From Tepidimonas thermarum (GTDB taxonomy: Bacteria > Pseudomonadota > Gammaproteobacteria > Burkholderiales > Burkholderiaceae_C), in contig NZ_VJOL01000002.1 of NCBI RefSeq assembly GCF_007556705.1, positions 1 through 64,000 of the forward strand: a DNA stretch of 64,000 nucleotides, written 5' to 3'. The first letter of the stretch is position 1; each line of letters starts with the position of its first letter. The position numbers and the translations under genes are program-made. The notes under the pieces are model-generated. The model did no database searches. It had not been told where the DNA came from and saw nothing but the letters and a program-made list of their open reading frames with translations. Of this stretch, positions 27,883-40,355 are shown piece after piece.

Positions 27883-27948
27883 GCGGTGACTCCTTCGCGT
27901 AGACGGCCACCGGCGCCAGCGCGGCGCTTATGCTCACGCCACACGCCG

Positions 27949-28064
27949 GTGGGTGAGCGTCGTTGTCAACAGGGCCGCTGCGCGCCCATCGCACGCTTTG
28001 CGGCGGTTTCGTCGAGCCTCGCGCCGGTGCGGCTGACGACCACGGCGCTGCAACGCTCCTCGCA
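27949..28064 (-). promoter_or_regulatory. SAH riboswitch of the ahcY operon
   Basis: On the minus strand the conserved blocks of the S-adenosylhomocysteine riboswitch appear in order: GCGAGGAGCGUUGCAGC (28064-28048), GAGGCUCGACGAAACC (28021-28006) and AACGACGCUCACC (27964-27952). GAGCGU of the first block pairs with ACGCUC of the last (P1), and CGAG of the first pairs with CUCG of the middle block (pseudoknot). The class activates ahcY when SAH accumulates. The remaining leader to 27883 contains GC-rich inverted sequence that could act as the expression platform near the ribosome-binding site. Confidence 0.93.
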
Positions 28065-28075
28065 AAACCAACGGC

Positions 28076-37503: not shown

Positions 37504-38643
37504 TTACCGCCGGCGCGCCGCGCGCCGCGCCGCCACCGCGTCGGCCAGGGTCTGCAGCACCTGCACCGAGGCGTCCCAATCGATGCAGGCATCGGTGATG
37601 CTTTGCCCGTAGGCCAGCCGCGCCGGGTCGTCCTTGCCCGGGGTGAATTTTTGCGCGCCGGCGCGCAGGTGGCTCTCCACCATGACACCGAAAATGCGTT
37701 CCGACCCAGCGGCGATCTGCCCTGCCACGTCGCGCGCGACATCGATTTGGCGCTCGTGCTGCTTTTGGCTGTTGCCGTGGCTGCAATCCACCATGACGCG
37801 CGCGGGCAGCTTGGCGTCGGCGAGCTGCTGGCAGGCAATGGCCACGCTGTCGGCGTCGTAATTGGGCAGCTTGCCGCCGCGCAGGATGACGTGGCAGTCG
37901 GGGTTGCCCTTGGTCTGGACGATGGCCACCTGGCCGTTTTTGTGCACCGACAGGAAGTGGTGCGGGCGGCTGGCGGCCAGGATGGCGTCGGTGGCGATGC
38001 GGATGTTGCCGTCGGTGCCGTTTTTGAAGCCGATCGGTGCACTCAACCCCGAGGCAAGCTCGCGGTGCACCTGGCTTTCGGTGGTGCGCGCCCCGATCGC
38101 CCCCCACGCGATGAGGTCGGCGATGTACTGCGGGCTGATGACGTCGAGAAATTCGCTCGCCGCCGGCAGCCCCAGCCGGTTGATCTCGATGAGCAACTGG
38201 CGCGCGATGCGCAGGCCCTCGTCGATGCGAAAACTCTCATCCAGGTACGGGTCGTTGATCAGGCCCTTCCAGCCCACCGTGGTGCGCGGCTTTTCGAAGT
38301 ACACGCGCATCACGATTTCGAGCGTGTCGGCGTGGCGGTCGCGCTGCTCTTTGAGGCGGCGCGCGTACTCCATGGCCGCTGCCGGGTCATGGATCGAGCA
38401 TGGCCCGATGATGACCAGCAGCCGGTCGTCCTTGCCGTGCAGGATCTGGTGGATGGCGCGGCGTGTGCGGGTGATGAGCGATTCGATGCCAGTGCCGCGG
38501 ATGGGAAAGAAGCGGATCAAGTGCTCGGGCGGCGGCAGCACGGTGATGTCCTCGATGCGTTGGTCGTCGGTCTGGCTGGTGCGGTCGGCCGGATGGGGAT
38601 ACCAGACGTCGGTGCTGCTGGCTTTGGCGGGGCTCGGGCTCAT
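37504..38643 (-). CDS. aroG: 3-deoxy-7-phosphoheptulonate synthase (class I DAHP synthase)
   Basis: 379 residues. First step of the shikimate pathway: phosphoenolpyruvate plus erythrose 4-phosphate to DAHP. Class I features: IIGPCSIHDP, RVYFEKPRTTVGWKG, GFKNGTDGNI, and metal-binding VDCSHGNSQKQH. ATG 38643 follows GGAG at 6 bases. Which aromatic amino acid inhibits the enzyme is unclear, so the symbol is generic. An attenuator with an aromatic leader peptide precedes it (38677-38806). Confidence 0.94.
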   Translation of the reverse strand: MSPSPAKASSTDVWYPHPADRTSQTDDQRIEDITVLPPPEHLIRFFPIRGTGIESLITRTRRAIHQILHGKDDRLLVIIGPCSIHDPAAAMEYARRLKEQRDRHADTLEIVMRVYFEKPRTTVGWKGLINDPYLDESFRIDEGLRIARQLLIEINRLGLPAASEFLDVISPQYIADLIAWGAIGARTTESQVHRELASGLSAPIGFKNGTDGNIRIATDAILAASRPHHFLSVHKNGQVAIVQTKGNPDCHVILRGGKLPNYDADSVAIACQQLADAKLPARVMVDCSHGNSQKQHERQIDVARDVAGQIAAGSERIFGVMVESHLRAGAQKFTPGKDDPARLAYGQSITDACIDWDASVQVLQTLADAVAARRAARRR

Positions 38644-38676
38644 GAAACGCTCCTTCGATGGCATGAAACGGGGGGC

Positions 38677-38707
38677 AAAAAAAAACCGCCGGTGGGGACC
38701 GACGGTT
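38677..38707 (-). terminator. Attenuator terminator before DAHP synthase
   Basis: On the minus strand AACCGTCGGT (38707-38698), loop CCCC and ACCGGCGGTT (38693-38684) form a 10-bp stem with one G-U pair, followed by nine T (38685-38677, the last two stem bases included). It lies 33 bases before the aroG start and after the leader peptide, so it can stop transcription early. Its 5' arm CCGTCGGT is the exact complement of ACCGACGG in the leader-peptide coding tail (38758-38751). Confidence 0.88.
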
Positions 38708-38737
38708 TCGAGTTCAGGGGCTTTTGCTGGGGCGCTT

Positions 38738-38806
38738 TCAGACCTCTCTGCCGTCGGTGACGCGTGAGAACCAAAAGTAGCCAAAGTAAAAGCCGCGCTT
38801 GTGCAT
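38738..38806 (-). CDS. Aromatic leader peptide controlling DAHP synthase (22 aa)
   Basis: ATG at 38806 and TGA at 38740-38738 enclose 22 codons. Residues 6-13 read FYFGYFWF: four Phe, two Tyr and one Trp in eight codons. This is the hallmark of a ribosome-mediated attenuator: when charged Phe, Tyr or Trp tRNA is scarce, the ribosome stalls there. Codons 17-19 (ACC GAC GGC) contain ACCGACGG, able to pair with the 5' arm of the terminator and so prevent it. A ribosome that reads on to the stop covers this segment, letting the terminator form. GAGTGAAG lies 4 bases before the ATG as a ribosome-binding site. Confidence 0.85.
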   Translation of the reverse strand: MHKRGFYFGYFWFSRVTDGREV

Positions 38807-38885
38807 GGGCTTCACTCTAACACAGCTTGCATGACAGGATGCTGACATGGTGCCCGGCGTGCGTGGCCTGCGCGCAACACGGCGC

Positions 38886-40355
38886 TCAGGCCGTGCCCCC
38901 CACGGTCAGGCCGTCCAGCCGCAGCGTGGGCTGTCCAACCCCGACGGGGACGCTTTGCCCCTCTTTGCCGCAGGTGCCCACCCCGCTGTCGAGGGCCAGG
39001 TCGTTGCCGATCATCACGATGCGCTTGAGCGCCTCGGGCCCGCTGCCGATGAGGGTCGCACCTTTGACTGGGTAGAGCAGACGGCCGTTTTCCACCCACC
39101 ACGCGCTGCTGGCCGAAAAGACAAACTTGCCGCTGGTGATGTCCACCTGCCCACCGCCAAACTGAGTGGCGTAGAGCCCGCGGCGCACGCTGGCGACGAT
39201 CTCCTGCGGGTCGTGCTCGCCCGCCAGCATGTAGGTGTTGGTCATGCGCGGCATGGGCAGGTGGGCGTAGCTTTCGCGGCGGCCGTTGCCGGTTGGCGCC
39301 ACGCCCATGAGGCGCGCATTGAGCCGGTCCTGCAGGTAGCCGCGCAAGATGCCGTCTTCGATGAGCACGTTGCGCTGGCTGGCGCAGCCCTCGTCGTCCA
39401 CGTTGAGCGAGCCGCGCCGGCCCTCGAGCGTGCCATCGTCCAGCACCGTGACGCCCTTGGCCGCCACGCGCTCGCCGATGCGCCCGGCAAAGGCGCTGGA
39501 GCCCTTGCGGTTGAAGTCGCCCTCCAACCCATGGCCCACCGCCTCGTGCAGCAGCACGCCGGGCCAGCCCGGCCCCAGCACGACCGTCATTTCGCCCGCC
39601 GGCGCAGGGCGCGACTCGAGGTTGGTCAGCGCCGCCTGCACCGCCTCATCCACGTAGCGCGTCAGGACGGCGTCGTCGAAATACGCCAAGCCCATGCGCC
39701 CGCCGCCGCCGGCGGTACCCACCTCGCGCCGCTCACCCTGCTGCGCGATCACCGTCAGCGACAGCCGCACCAGCGGACGCACGTCGGCGGCCAGCACACC
39801 GTCGGCGCGCGCCACCAGCACCACGTCGTATTCGGCGGCCAGCCCCGCCATCACCTGCACGATGCGCGGGTCGCGTGCGCGCGCCATCTGCTCGATGCGC
39901 TGCAGCAGCGCCACCTTGGCCGCGCTGTCGAGCGTGCCGATCGGGTCGTGGGCGGCGTAGAGCTGGCGCGAGGGCGCCACCGCCGTGCGCCGCGTGCGGC
40001 GCAGGTTGGCGCGCTGGCTGCCGCCTTGCCGTCCGATGGCGCGCACGCTCTCGGCCGCCTCACGCAGCGCGGCCCACGACAGGTCGTCGGAGTAGGCGAA
40101 GGCCGTCTTGTCGCCGCTGACCGCGCGCACGCCAACGCCCTGGTCGATGCTGAAGCTGCCGGTCTTGACGATACCCTCCTCCAGGCTCCAGCCCTCGCTG
40201 CGCGTGTACTGGAAATACAGGTCGGCGTCATCGACCCCCGGCGCCATGATGGCCGAGAGCGCGCGGCGCAGGTGGCCCTCGTCCAGGCCGTAGGGTTCGA
40301 GCAGCAGGGAACGCGCCGTGGCCAGGCGCTCCAGGGTCGGTTCGACAGCGATCAT
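38886..40355 (-). CDS. tldD: Metalloprotease TldD
   Basis: 489 residues. Subunit of the TldD/TldE (PmbA) zinc protease that degrades unfolded peptides and matures some ribosomally made peptides. Zinc motif LLHEAVGHGLEGD (HExxxH), and conserved C-terminal LYPVKGATLIGSGPEALKRI. TldE is not in the window. Located between rodA and the aroG attenuator on the same strand, 47 bp after rodA. Confidence 0.95.
   Translation of the reverse strand: MIAVEPTLERLATARSLLLEPYGLDEGHLRRALSAIMAPGVDDADLYFQYTRSEGWSLEEGIVKTGSFSIDQGVGVRAVSGDKTAFAYSDDLSWAALREAAESVRAIGRQGGSQRANLRRTRRTAVAPSRQLYAAHDPIGTLDSAAKVALLQRIEQMARARDPRIVQVMAGLAAEYDVVLVARADGVLAADVRPLVRLSLTVIAQQGERREVGTAGGGGRMGLAYFDDAVLTRYVDEAVQAALTNLESRPAPAGEMTVVLGPGWPGVLLHEAVGHGLEGDFNRKGSSAFAGRIGERVAAKGVTVLDDGTLEGRRGSLNVDDEGCASQRNVLIEDGILRGYLQDRLNARLMGVAPTGNGRRESYAHLPMPRMTNTYMLAGEHDPQEIVASVRRGLYATQFGGGQVDITSGKFVFSASSAWWVENGRLLYPVKGATLIGSGPEALKRIVMIGNDLALDSGVGTCGKEGQSVPVGVGQPTLRLDGLTVGGTA

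Follow-up and report, generated by a model that had tools for sequence, protein, structure and literature searches.

The window analysed here is a stretch of 64,000 nucleotides from Tepidimonas thermarum (contig NZ_VJOL01000002.1, positions 1 to 64,000). On its minus strand lies aroG, whose ATG at 38643 opens a 379-aa product that is a DAHP synthase (TIGR00034, PF00793), as the first-pass annotation had it; the AroG model NF006723 gives this product 548 bits, just below its 568-bit cut-off. Across the assembly aroG is the sole type I DAHP synthase match, and searches of the same assembly for a type II DAHP synthase (PF01474) and for TrpR (PF01371) returned no match. Ahead of aroG stand a short, aromatic-rich leader reading frame and a hairpin with a T run, and further upstream on the same strand is another gene, which we take by eye to be tldD-like. 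The features, all on the minus strand, are these:

38814–38824 (−): predicted extended −10 element, TGTGTTAGAGT, with 7 nt between it and the leader ATG
38806 (−): predicted transcription start, on the A of the leader ATG or a neighbouring base
38738–38806 (−): leader reading frame, MHKRGFYFGYFWFSRVTDGREV followed by a stop, from reading the frame and from comparison across the family
38768–38791 (−): control codons FYFGYFWF, leader residues 6–13, from reading and from the stall model
38766–38770 (−): segment 1, UUCUC, where the aromatic codons end, from the consensus pairs UUCUC/GAGAG
38751–38758 (−): segment B, ACCGACGG, a copy of the terminator 3′ arm that can pair with the 5′ arm
38744–38748 (−): segment 2, GAGAG, whose partner is segment 1 or the ACTC ahead of the terminator
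38710–38713 (−): ACTC, the alternative partner of segment 2 in the antiterminator, from the family CTC count and the window fold
38698–38709 (−): terminator 5′ arm, segment C, GAAACCGTCGGT
38682–38693 (−): terminator 3′ arm, segment D, ACCGGCGGTTTT
38677–38685 (−): run of nine T (U tract)
38650–38655 (−): AAGGAG, Shine-Dalgarno-like site of aroG
37504–38643 (−): aroG, type I DAHP synthase, 379 aa (TIGR00034, PF00793)

The leader with FYFGYFWF is present as first described, and so is the complementary pair, with ACCGACGG at 38758–38751 and its complement CCGTCGGT within the 5′ arm at 38705–38698. The terminator had been annotated with ten pairs and nine T; the hairpin and the T run are there, but we count 12 pairs (38709–38682, including A-T and G.T, around a CCCC loop), and this is the sole terminator-like site in 38550–39100. 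Membership of a known Rfam, NCBIfam or Pfam family was rejected, as the Rfam models at gathering score match only a tRNA and an SAH riboswitch in the window, both away from the leader, and the leader peptide has 0 matches in NCBIfam and Pfam. The riboswitch is an aptamer of RF01057 (41 bits) at 27948–28067 on the minus strand.

Taken by itself, the terminator count is weak evidence, with one real site compared with 0.4 ± 0.9 in shuffles of 38550–39100. The match between B and C fares similarly when the leader is recoded synonymously: half of the trials equal the real match (p = 0.50), and over 93 loci the same null gives p ≤ 0.05 in 12 only, with a mean score of 19.9 against 16.3 (L039, which shares a contig with L026, and the false match L082 were excluded). 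Under plain shuffling of leader tails, 17 of 411 shuffles attain the locus's own match score. The B:C pair in the window alone is thus at chance level given the peptide, and it is comparison that makes the pair convincing. Because the window did not rise above chance, the upstream regions of relatives were collected.

These regions were picked by homology of the DAHP synthase and not of the leader, and were scored for a reading frame of 12–45 aa with at least five F, Y or W in ten residues, followed by a terminator. In the family (Burkholderiaceae_C) 137 of 140 loci have both. The combination also occurs at 62 of 79 loci of named relatives and, in the order beyond the family, at 23 of 89; the class has it at 1 of 48 loci, and the second or weaker matches of the family at 1 of 8. 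The reverse strand of the same 364 regions holds 13 leaders and a single leader with terminator. The named set partly overlaps the family set, so that their counts are not to be added, and the duplicates L039, L111 and L112 were left out of all of them; one order locus, L124, has a leader and no terminator by the fixed rule. The 140 family loci come from 149 family genomes with a DAHP synthase match (outside the 140 are G009; G040, G043, G068, G074, G112 and G115, whose best match is not among the matches listed; and G093 and G140, which are among the weaker matches). The 89 order loci come from a search in which 93 of 120 genomes gave a match, and the 48 class loci from one in which 106 of 143 did.

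A covariance model trained on 49 members from the family and the named relatives recovers the element from 146 of the 150 family genomes, training rows included, and in 131 of the 133 that are at least 90% complete. The model matches at two of the three family loci missed by the rule (L297 and L350, genomes G045 and G094); the third, L356, is cut by a contig end, and its genome, G083, has a match on another contig. The four genomes without the element are G043, G055, G074 and G093 (80, 90, 90 and 55% complete), and G055 also has no DAHP synthase match. The first-pass annotation had staked its attenuator in part on conservation of the leader codons and the pair in relatives, and on this point these family counts bear it out.

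Named relatives with the element include Ramlibacter, Polaromonas, Variovorax, Hydrogenophaga, Acidovorax, Burkholderia, Caballeronia, Massilia, Janthinobacterium and Xanthomonas, and none was found at the examined loci of Polynucleobacter, Cupriavidus, Thauera, Azoarcus, Dechloromonas and Rhodocyclus. At three Polynucleobacter loci (L059, L060, L062), where no attenuator was found, TTAAAAT stands a few bases before the aroG ATG; this arrangement would fit a loss of the attenuator, with aroG itself turned leaderless.

Phenylalanine, tyrosine and tryptophan all fall inside the aromatic run in 126 of 137 family leaders, and we infer that the three are sensed together. Some leaders have no tryptophan (L083, L092, L094, L097, L098, L100 and L104, from Noviherbaspirillum, Massilia, Janthinobacterium, Rugamonas and Oxalobacteraceae records), so that the amino acids to which the leader responds may change from one lineage to another; in L079 and L088 the tryptophan comes only after the run. 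The leader of L048, MRTTVRYHFWHFHIQHLTGAGVANA, is odd in having four histidines among its aromatics.

The family alignment reads, in order, UUCUC as the aromatic codons close, segment B, GAGAG, arm C (ACCGCCGG) and arm D. Segment B is CCGGCGG in most members, a duplicate of the terminator 3′ arm, and GAGAG follows it directly in 125 of 137 leaders. RNAalifold on a 49-row alignment forms two helices, one of UUCUC and GAGAG enclosing B and one of C and D, a consensus that suggests a trp-like four-segment layout. Neither helix shows much covariation, because the letters barely vary. On slices of the 137-row family alignment RNAalifold recovered the terminator alone, which we think is due to a poorly aligned, variable middle. 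The trinucleotide CTC precedes C within 16 nt at 90 of 137 family loci (25.9 expected), 22 of 62 named loci (8.3 expected) and 7 of 25 others (3.2 expected), and because it does so this often, B with GAGAG can pair with CTC and C as a two-part antiterminator. The fold of the window contains this same two-part structure. The cores of B and GAGAG mostly keep to one reading frame, with a minority elsewhere (102/2/23 and 19/100/6 over the three frames), and the residues that follow the run differ from lineage to lineage (PGGREA, TDGRES, PAVERS, LADREG, NPKAVE); from both observations it follows that the tail is conserved as RNA more than as peptide.

Covariation between B and C ties the two segments together. 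In 49 rows, 92.9% of B:C cells are paired. Shuffles give 90.9 ± 0.2, with 0 of 500 reaching the real value, and sliding the segments gives 55.3% at most; cells changed on both sides number 7 against 0.9 (0 of 500), and the covariation score is 0.104 against 0.067 (0 of 500). Two coarser counts do not exceed chance, namely the pairs with a double change (2, attained by 65 of 500 shuffles) and the pair types (5, attained by 320 of 500). Tested against D as a control, the B core shows no pairing. One core position, taken over 133 family rows, is G-C in 122, A-T in 8, G.T in 2 and mismatched in 1. In the 10 rows in which the C arm has changed from C to T, B carries A in 8 and G in 2, and D keeps its G, as a wobble, in all 10. 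The window belongs to this type, with a Watson-Crick B:C helix and a G.U in its terminator. The position next to the core one is A-T in two rows and an A-C mismatch in two. The flanking pair B−1 shows no covariation within the family (p = 0.54) and does covary across 187 distinct constructs, where it is paired in 0.82 against 0.73; pairs past the core on the other side are not paired. Five loci in which no B core or arm could be found (L022, L034, L322, L336, L351) are omitted from these counts. On a tree of 105 DAHP synthases the switch in the clade of the window amounts to one change in C, two in B and none in D, and compensatory events that are independent on the tree are few, too few contrasts for a test. 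Many loci outside the family have CTGGCGG and CCGCCAG as B and C. Two Burkholderia loci (L084, L087) have the arm CCGCCGG where close relatives have CCGCCAG, and their B is still CTGGCGG, which places a G.U in the antiterminator.

The evidential weight for the attenuator comes from the relatives, both from the 137 of 140 family loci set against 1 of 364 reverse-strand regions and from this covariation. The two-state reading of the first-pass annotation is supported on the same two counts, by conservation and by the way in which B tracks the terminator 5′ arm. To what that annotation described, the comparison adds the UUCUC/GAGAG pair, the CTC before the arm, a predicted leaderless mRNA and a companion element at leuA.

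In the stall model the ribosome is stepped codon by codon along the leader and the RNA downstream of it is folded as far as C. For the window, the probability of B:C pairing at the codons F6 to F13 is 0.97, 0.97, 0.98, 0.98, 0.98, 0.98, 0.98 and 0.87; it drops to 0.33 at S14 and is 0.00 for every codon from R15 to the stop, and the model is also permissive before the run, at codons 2–5 (0.78–0.97). The family means are 0.95–0.96 for the three codons that precede the last aromatic, 0.79 for the last aromatic itself, 0.36, 0.08 and 0.01 at the next three codons, and 0.64–0.92 further upstream. The aromatic run therefore ends where the modelled switch turns off, and the upstream border is blurred. 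In 125 of 137 leaders the F, Y and W codons all lie in the permissive zone.

With everything before B masked, the median probability of B:C is 0.99, and with no ribosome it is 0.02, exceeding 0.5 in 44 of 137. With a stalled ribosome, 135 of 137 real leaders and 202 of 411 with shuffled tails exceed 0.8; the median without a ribosome is 0.0 in shuffles, so the low real value is not special, and a high stalled value combined with a low free one occurs in 82 of 137 real leaders and 137 of 411 shuffles. Since B was chosen as the best match and shuffles often score likewise, the folding probabilities alone are weak evidence, and given this shuffle control the trapping of B without a ribosome rests on the conserved UUCUC/GAGAG pair and not on the folding numbers. 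In the fold of the window without a ribosome, the distant pairs GGCUUUU/AAAAGCC are also involved. The full-length RNA folded at equilibrium favors the terminator, and it does so in the stalled state too (median P(C:D) 0.93). The E. coli trp, pheA and his leaders, folded as controls, give 0.96, 0.97 and 0.99 for the terminator at full length, and in their nascent RNA the 5′ arm pairs upstream with probabilities of 0.71, 0.64 and only 0.26. Because equilibrium favors the terminator here as in the three E. coli leaders, the switch must be kinetic.

The start of the leader mRNA can be predicted from its promoter-like element. In the window the order is TGTGTTAGAGT-GAAGCCC-ATG, and a −10 element ends 6–8 nt short of the leader ATG in 116 of the 137 leaders of the family, compared with 1.9 in shuffles; a simple −35/−10 scan of 38550–39100 did not report this extended −10. 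A pyrimidine occupies position −1 of the leader ATG in 129 of 137 family leaders, and a Shine-Dalgarno-like 4-mer before it was found in 0 of 137. From the fixed extended −10 near the ATG and the lack of a Shine-Dalgarno sequence we predict that the leader mRNA is leaderless in the family. Outside it, a −10 at 6–8 nt is seen at 33 of 61 loci of named relatives and at 5 of 25 others, a Shine-Dalgarno-like 4-mer at one locus of each set, and at loci of the Burkholderia type TATAAA stands about 37 nt upstream. As the spacing varies in this way, leaderlessness looks like a trait of the family and some others and not of the mechanism. The pattern TGTGnTAnnnT-N7-ATG, drawn to fit the aroG leader site and the family, has two matches in the 2.7-Mb genome, here and before a leuA leader, where about 0.4 would be expected from the base composition of the window; read backwards, it has no match in the whole genome.

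The covariance model points to leuA as well. It gives one match in 143 genomes and a weak second match in three, and two of these second matches (L376, L377) are leucine leaders before the gene for 2-isopropylmalate synthase; the third (L378) has a hairpin and a T run with no leader visible. When three Leu within eight residues are required, a leucine leader stands at 13 of 14 leuA loci of the genome, genus and family (L379–L392, the miss being L392), and at eight order leuA loci it is doubtful or absent. The genome's own leuA leader is MDRLTLRLLCLPDCGQAV, closed by a stop (L380:1324–1473). In its nascent RNA the tail TGCGGGC pairs with GCCCGCA of the next hairpin, and with the whole leader present it pairs with other letters; the T run is short. 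Promoter spacing before the leucine leaders of L376, L377 and L379–L391 is like that of the aroG leader. That the amino acid of the leader changes with the downstream pathway appears to us the best independent argument that sensing is mediated by the ribosome.

We consider it very likely that a ribosome-mediated transcription attenuator controls aroG. The features that define such a device can be followed one by one at this locus. A reading frame of aromatic codons lies upstream and an intrinsic terminator lies between it and aroG. A mutually exclusive antiterminator that shares the terminator 5′ arm is indicated by complementarity and covariation, with which the folds agree, and in the folding model it is the position of the ribosome that decides the structure. 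The aroG element thus has most of the features tested, and it very probably works like the classical attenuators. The elements, their conservation, the covariation of B with C and the geometry of the codons could then combine as follows.

Transcription is predicted to start at or next to the leader ATG, with the ribosome beginning at the very 5′ end of the RNA. With charged tRNA-Phe, tRNA-Tyr and tRNA-Trp plentiful, the ribosome would read through FYFGYFWF and cover segment B, so that the nascent RNA would form the C:D terminator and transcription would end before aroG. With the charged tRNAs scarce, it would stall on the aromatic codons and cover UUCUC, leaving B and GAGAG free to pair with the emerging 5′ arm and CTC before the 3′ arm exists; with this antiterminator formed, RNA polymerase would continue into aroG. 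With no ribosome, UUCUC:GAGAG may hold B in its loop and let the terminator form, the least certain step of the scheme. The start site, the translation of the leader, the stalling and the amino acids that act are likewise our predictions from the arrangement of these parts.

The ribosome could also be halted by the peptide itself. As in TnaC, the nascent aromatic peptide would bind a free amino acid in the exit tunnel and stall the ribosome, the codons acting only through the peptide. The leader peptide is indeed rich in aromatics, and the run has tryptophan next to its end in 102 of the 137 leaders of the family. However, what is kept is composition, whereas order, spacing and length vary, as does the tail between lineages. 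Codon choice also suggests that the codons matter, since TTT makes up 264 of 404 Phe codons in the leaders, while the DAHP synthase genes at the same 92 loci use it for 128 of 729. Stalling would be sharper on rarer codons, and a need for U-rich, unstructured RNA could also underlie the preference. A leucine leader with a similar layout before leuA argues in the same direction, and on these grounds we rejected an arrest peptide, which seems to us highly improbable. Little better can be said of an element that acts mainly in trans, with the terminated leaderless RNA or its peptide regulating other genes in the manner of rnTrpL/peTrpL and attenuation secondary. Its start is predicted at the ATG as for rnTrpL, and termination would free a short RNA, but there is a single strong model match per genome in the 146 family genomes, the element stands at DAHP synthase in the collected loci and the tail is not conserved as a peptide; we regard a mainly trans-acting role as very unlikely. 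Scarcely credible is a fortuitous small reading frame beside the ordinary terminator of the tldD-like gene, a reading to which the same-strand gene upstream and the non-significant terminator count and recoded B:C match in the window would lend themselves and which we rejected on the 137 of 140 loci against 1 of 364, the B:C covariation, the promoter-like element between the upstream gene and the leader, and the fit of leader amino acids to the downstream pathway at two genes.

For the ribosome-mediated attenuator, a more specific proposal, to which we would give an even chance of being right, is a leaderless gate for three amino acids in which a stall at any Phe, Tyr or Trp codon would open aroG. 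The aroG and leuA leaders would then make up a small set with extended −10 promoters of one signature that start at the leader ATG, under the control of the ribosome and not of TrpR, and the terminated RNA may in addition act in trans. AroG is the entry enzyme of the shikimate pathway, and E. coli has feedback-regulated DAHP synthase isozymes for this step. There TyrR and TrpR also regulate the pathway, as described in PMC11802643. If our proposal is correct, one RNA switch would read three end products, as the E. coli isozymes do together with TyrR and TrpR. The element occurs in nearly all sampled genomes of the family and in part of the order, yet it is in no Rfam, NCBIfam or Pfam library that was searched. 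The predicted leaderless start also raises the question of how a ribosome could load on the first nascent nucleotides in time to catch the polymerase.

In the open full-text literature searched, there is no description of a DAHP synthase leader attenuator in proteobacteria, and the main text of the terminator survey PMC2965389 does not mention aroG, aroF or DAHP. Attenuation by a leader of DAHP synthase is already known in Corynebacterium and proposed in Acholeplasma. The aroR-aroF attenuator of C. glutamicum has a Phe-Tyr-Phe leader before its DAHP synthase gene and reads through under Phe limitation (PMC11802643 and PMC4046766), and Tyr supply is without effect although the leader contains Tyr (PMC11802643). 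Like it, the aroG element places a leader peptide of aromatic codons ahead of DAHP synthase; C. glutamicum belongs to a distant phylum, whereas here F, Y and W occur in 126 of 137 family leaders together with a conserved four-segment RNA, and the likeness is functional only. In Acholeplasma, the candidate small frame uORFC-13-1 lies before aroF, just ahead of a terminator, with at least one Phe residue; it has 24 representatives, from Acholeplasma and environmental sequences, and a ribosome-binding site (PMC8632094). The same paper notes that attenuation-like control of E. coli aroF had been hypothesized. Both systems join a small reading frame with Phe codons, a terminator and a DAHP synthase gene, a likeness of function, but no Shine-Dalgarno sequence was found before the aroG leader, in contrast to uORFC-13-1.

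The predicted start at the leader ATG has a parallel in trpLE(G) of Sinorhizobium meliloti, where the attenuator RNA begins at the leader ATG and trans functions of rnTrpL and peTrpL have been demonstrated (PMC7298713); that system is alphaproteobacterial and reads Trp only, whereas the aroG leader has Phe, Tyr and Trp codons. In Streptomyces lividans, several leaders are leaderless, one of them before leuA, and the eight leaders named in the part of PMC8079986 available are for Leu, Trp, Ala, Ile, Met and Thr, with none for DAHP synthase. S. lividans is actinobacterial, and it shares leaderless leaders, including that of leuA, with what we predict for Tepidimonas.

Close functional models are also trpL, pheL and hisL of E. 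coli, with which the aroG leader has in common its control codons, competing segments and intrinsic terminator; the E. coli trp and pheA leaders also behave like it in the folding model. In contrast to these single-amino-acid leaders, the aroG leader has codons for three amino acids and a pairing segment inside its own reading frame, and a search for a Shine-Dalgarno sequence before it found none. The first-pass annotation had set it apart from the classic leaders for reading Phe, Tyr and Trp together, and this needs qualifying, as leaders for several amino acids are known, such as that of ilvGMEDA, and the DAHP synthase of C. glutamicum has its Phe-Tyr-Phe leader. In enterobacteria the ilvGMEDA and thr leaders each read several amino acids. 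The aroG leader likewise covers several amino acids of a branched pathway, and it differs from them in pathway and in sequence.
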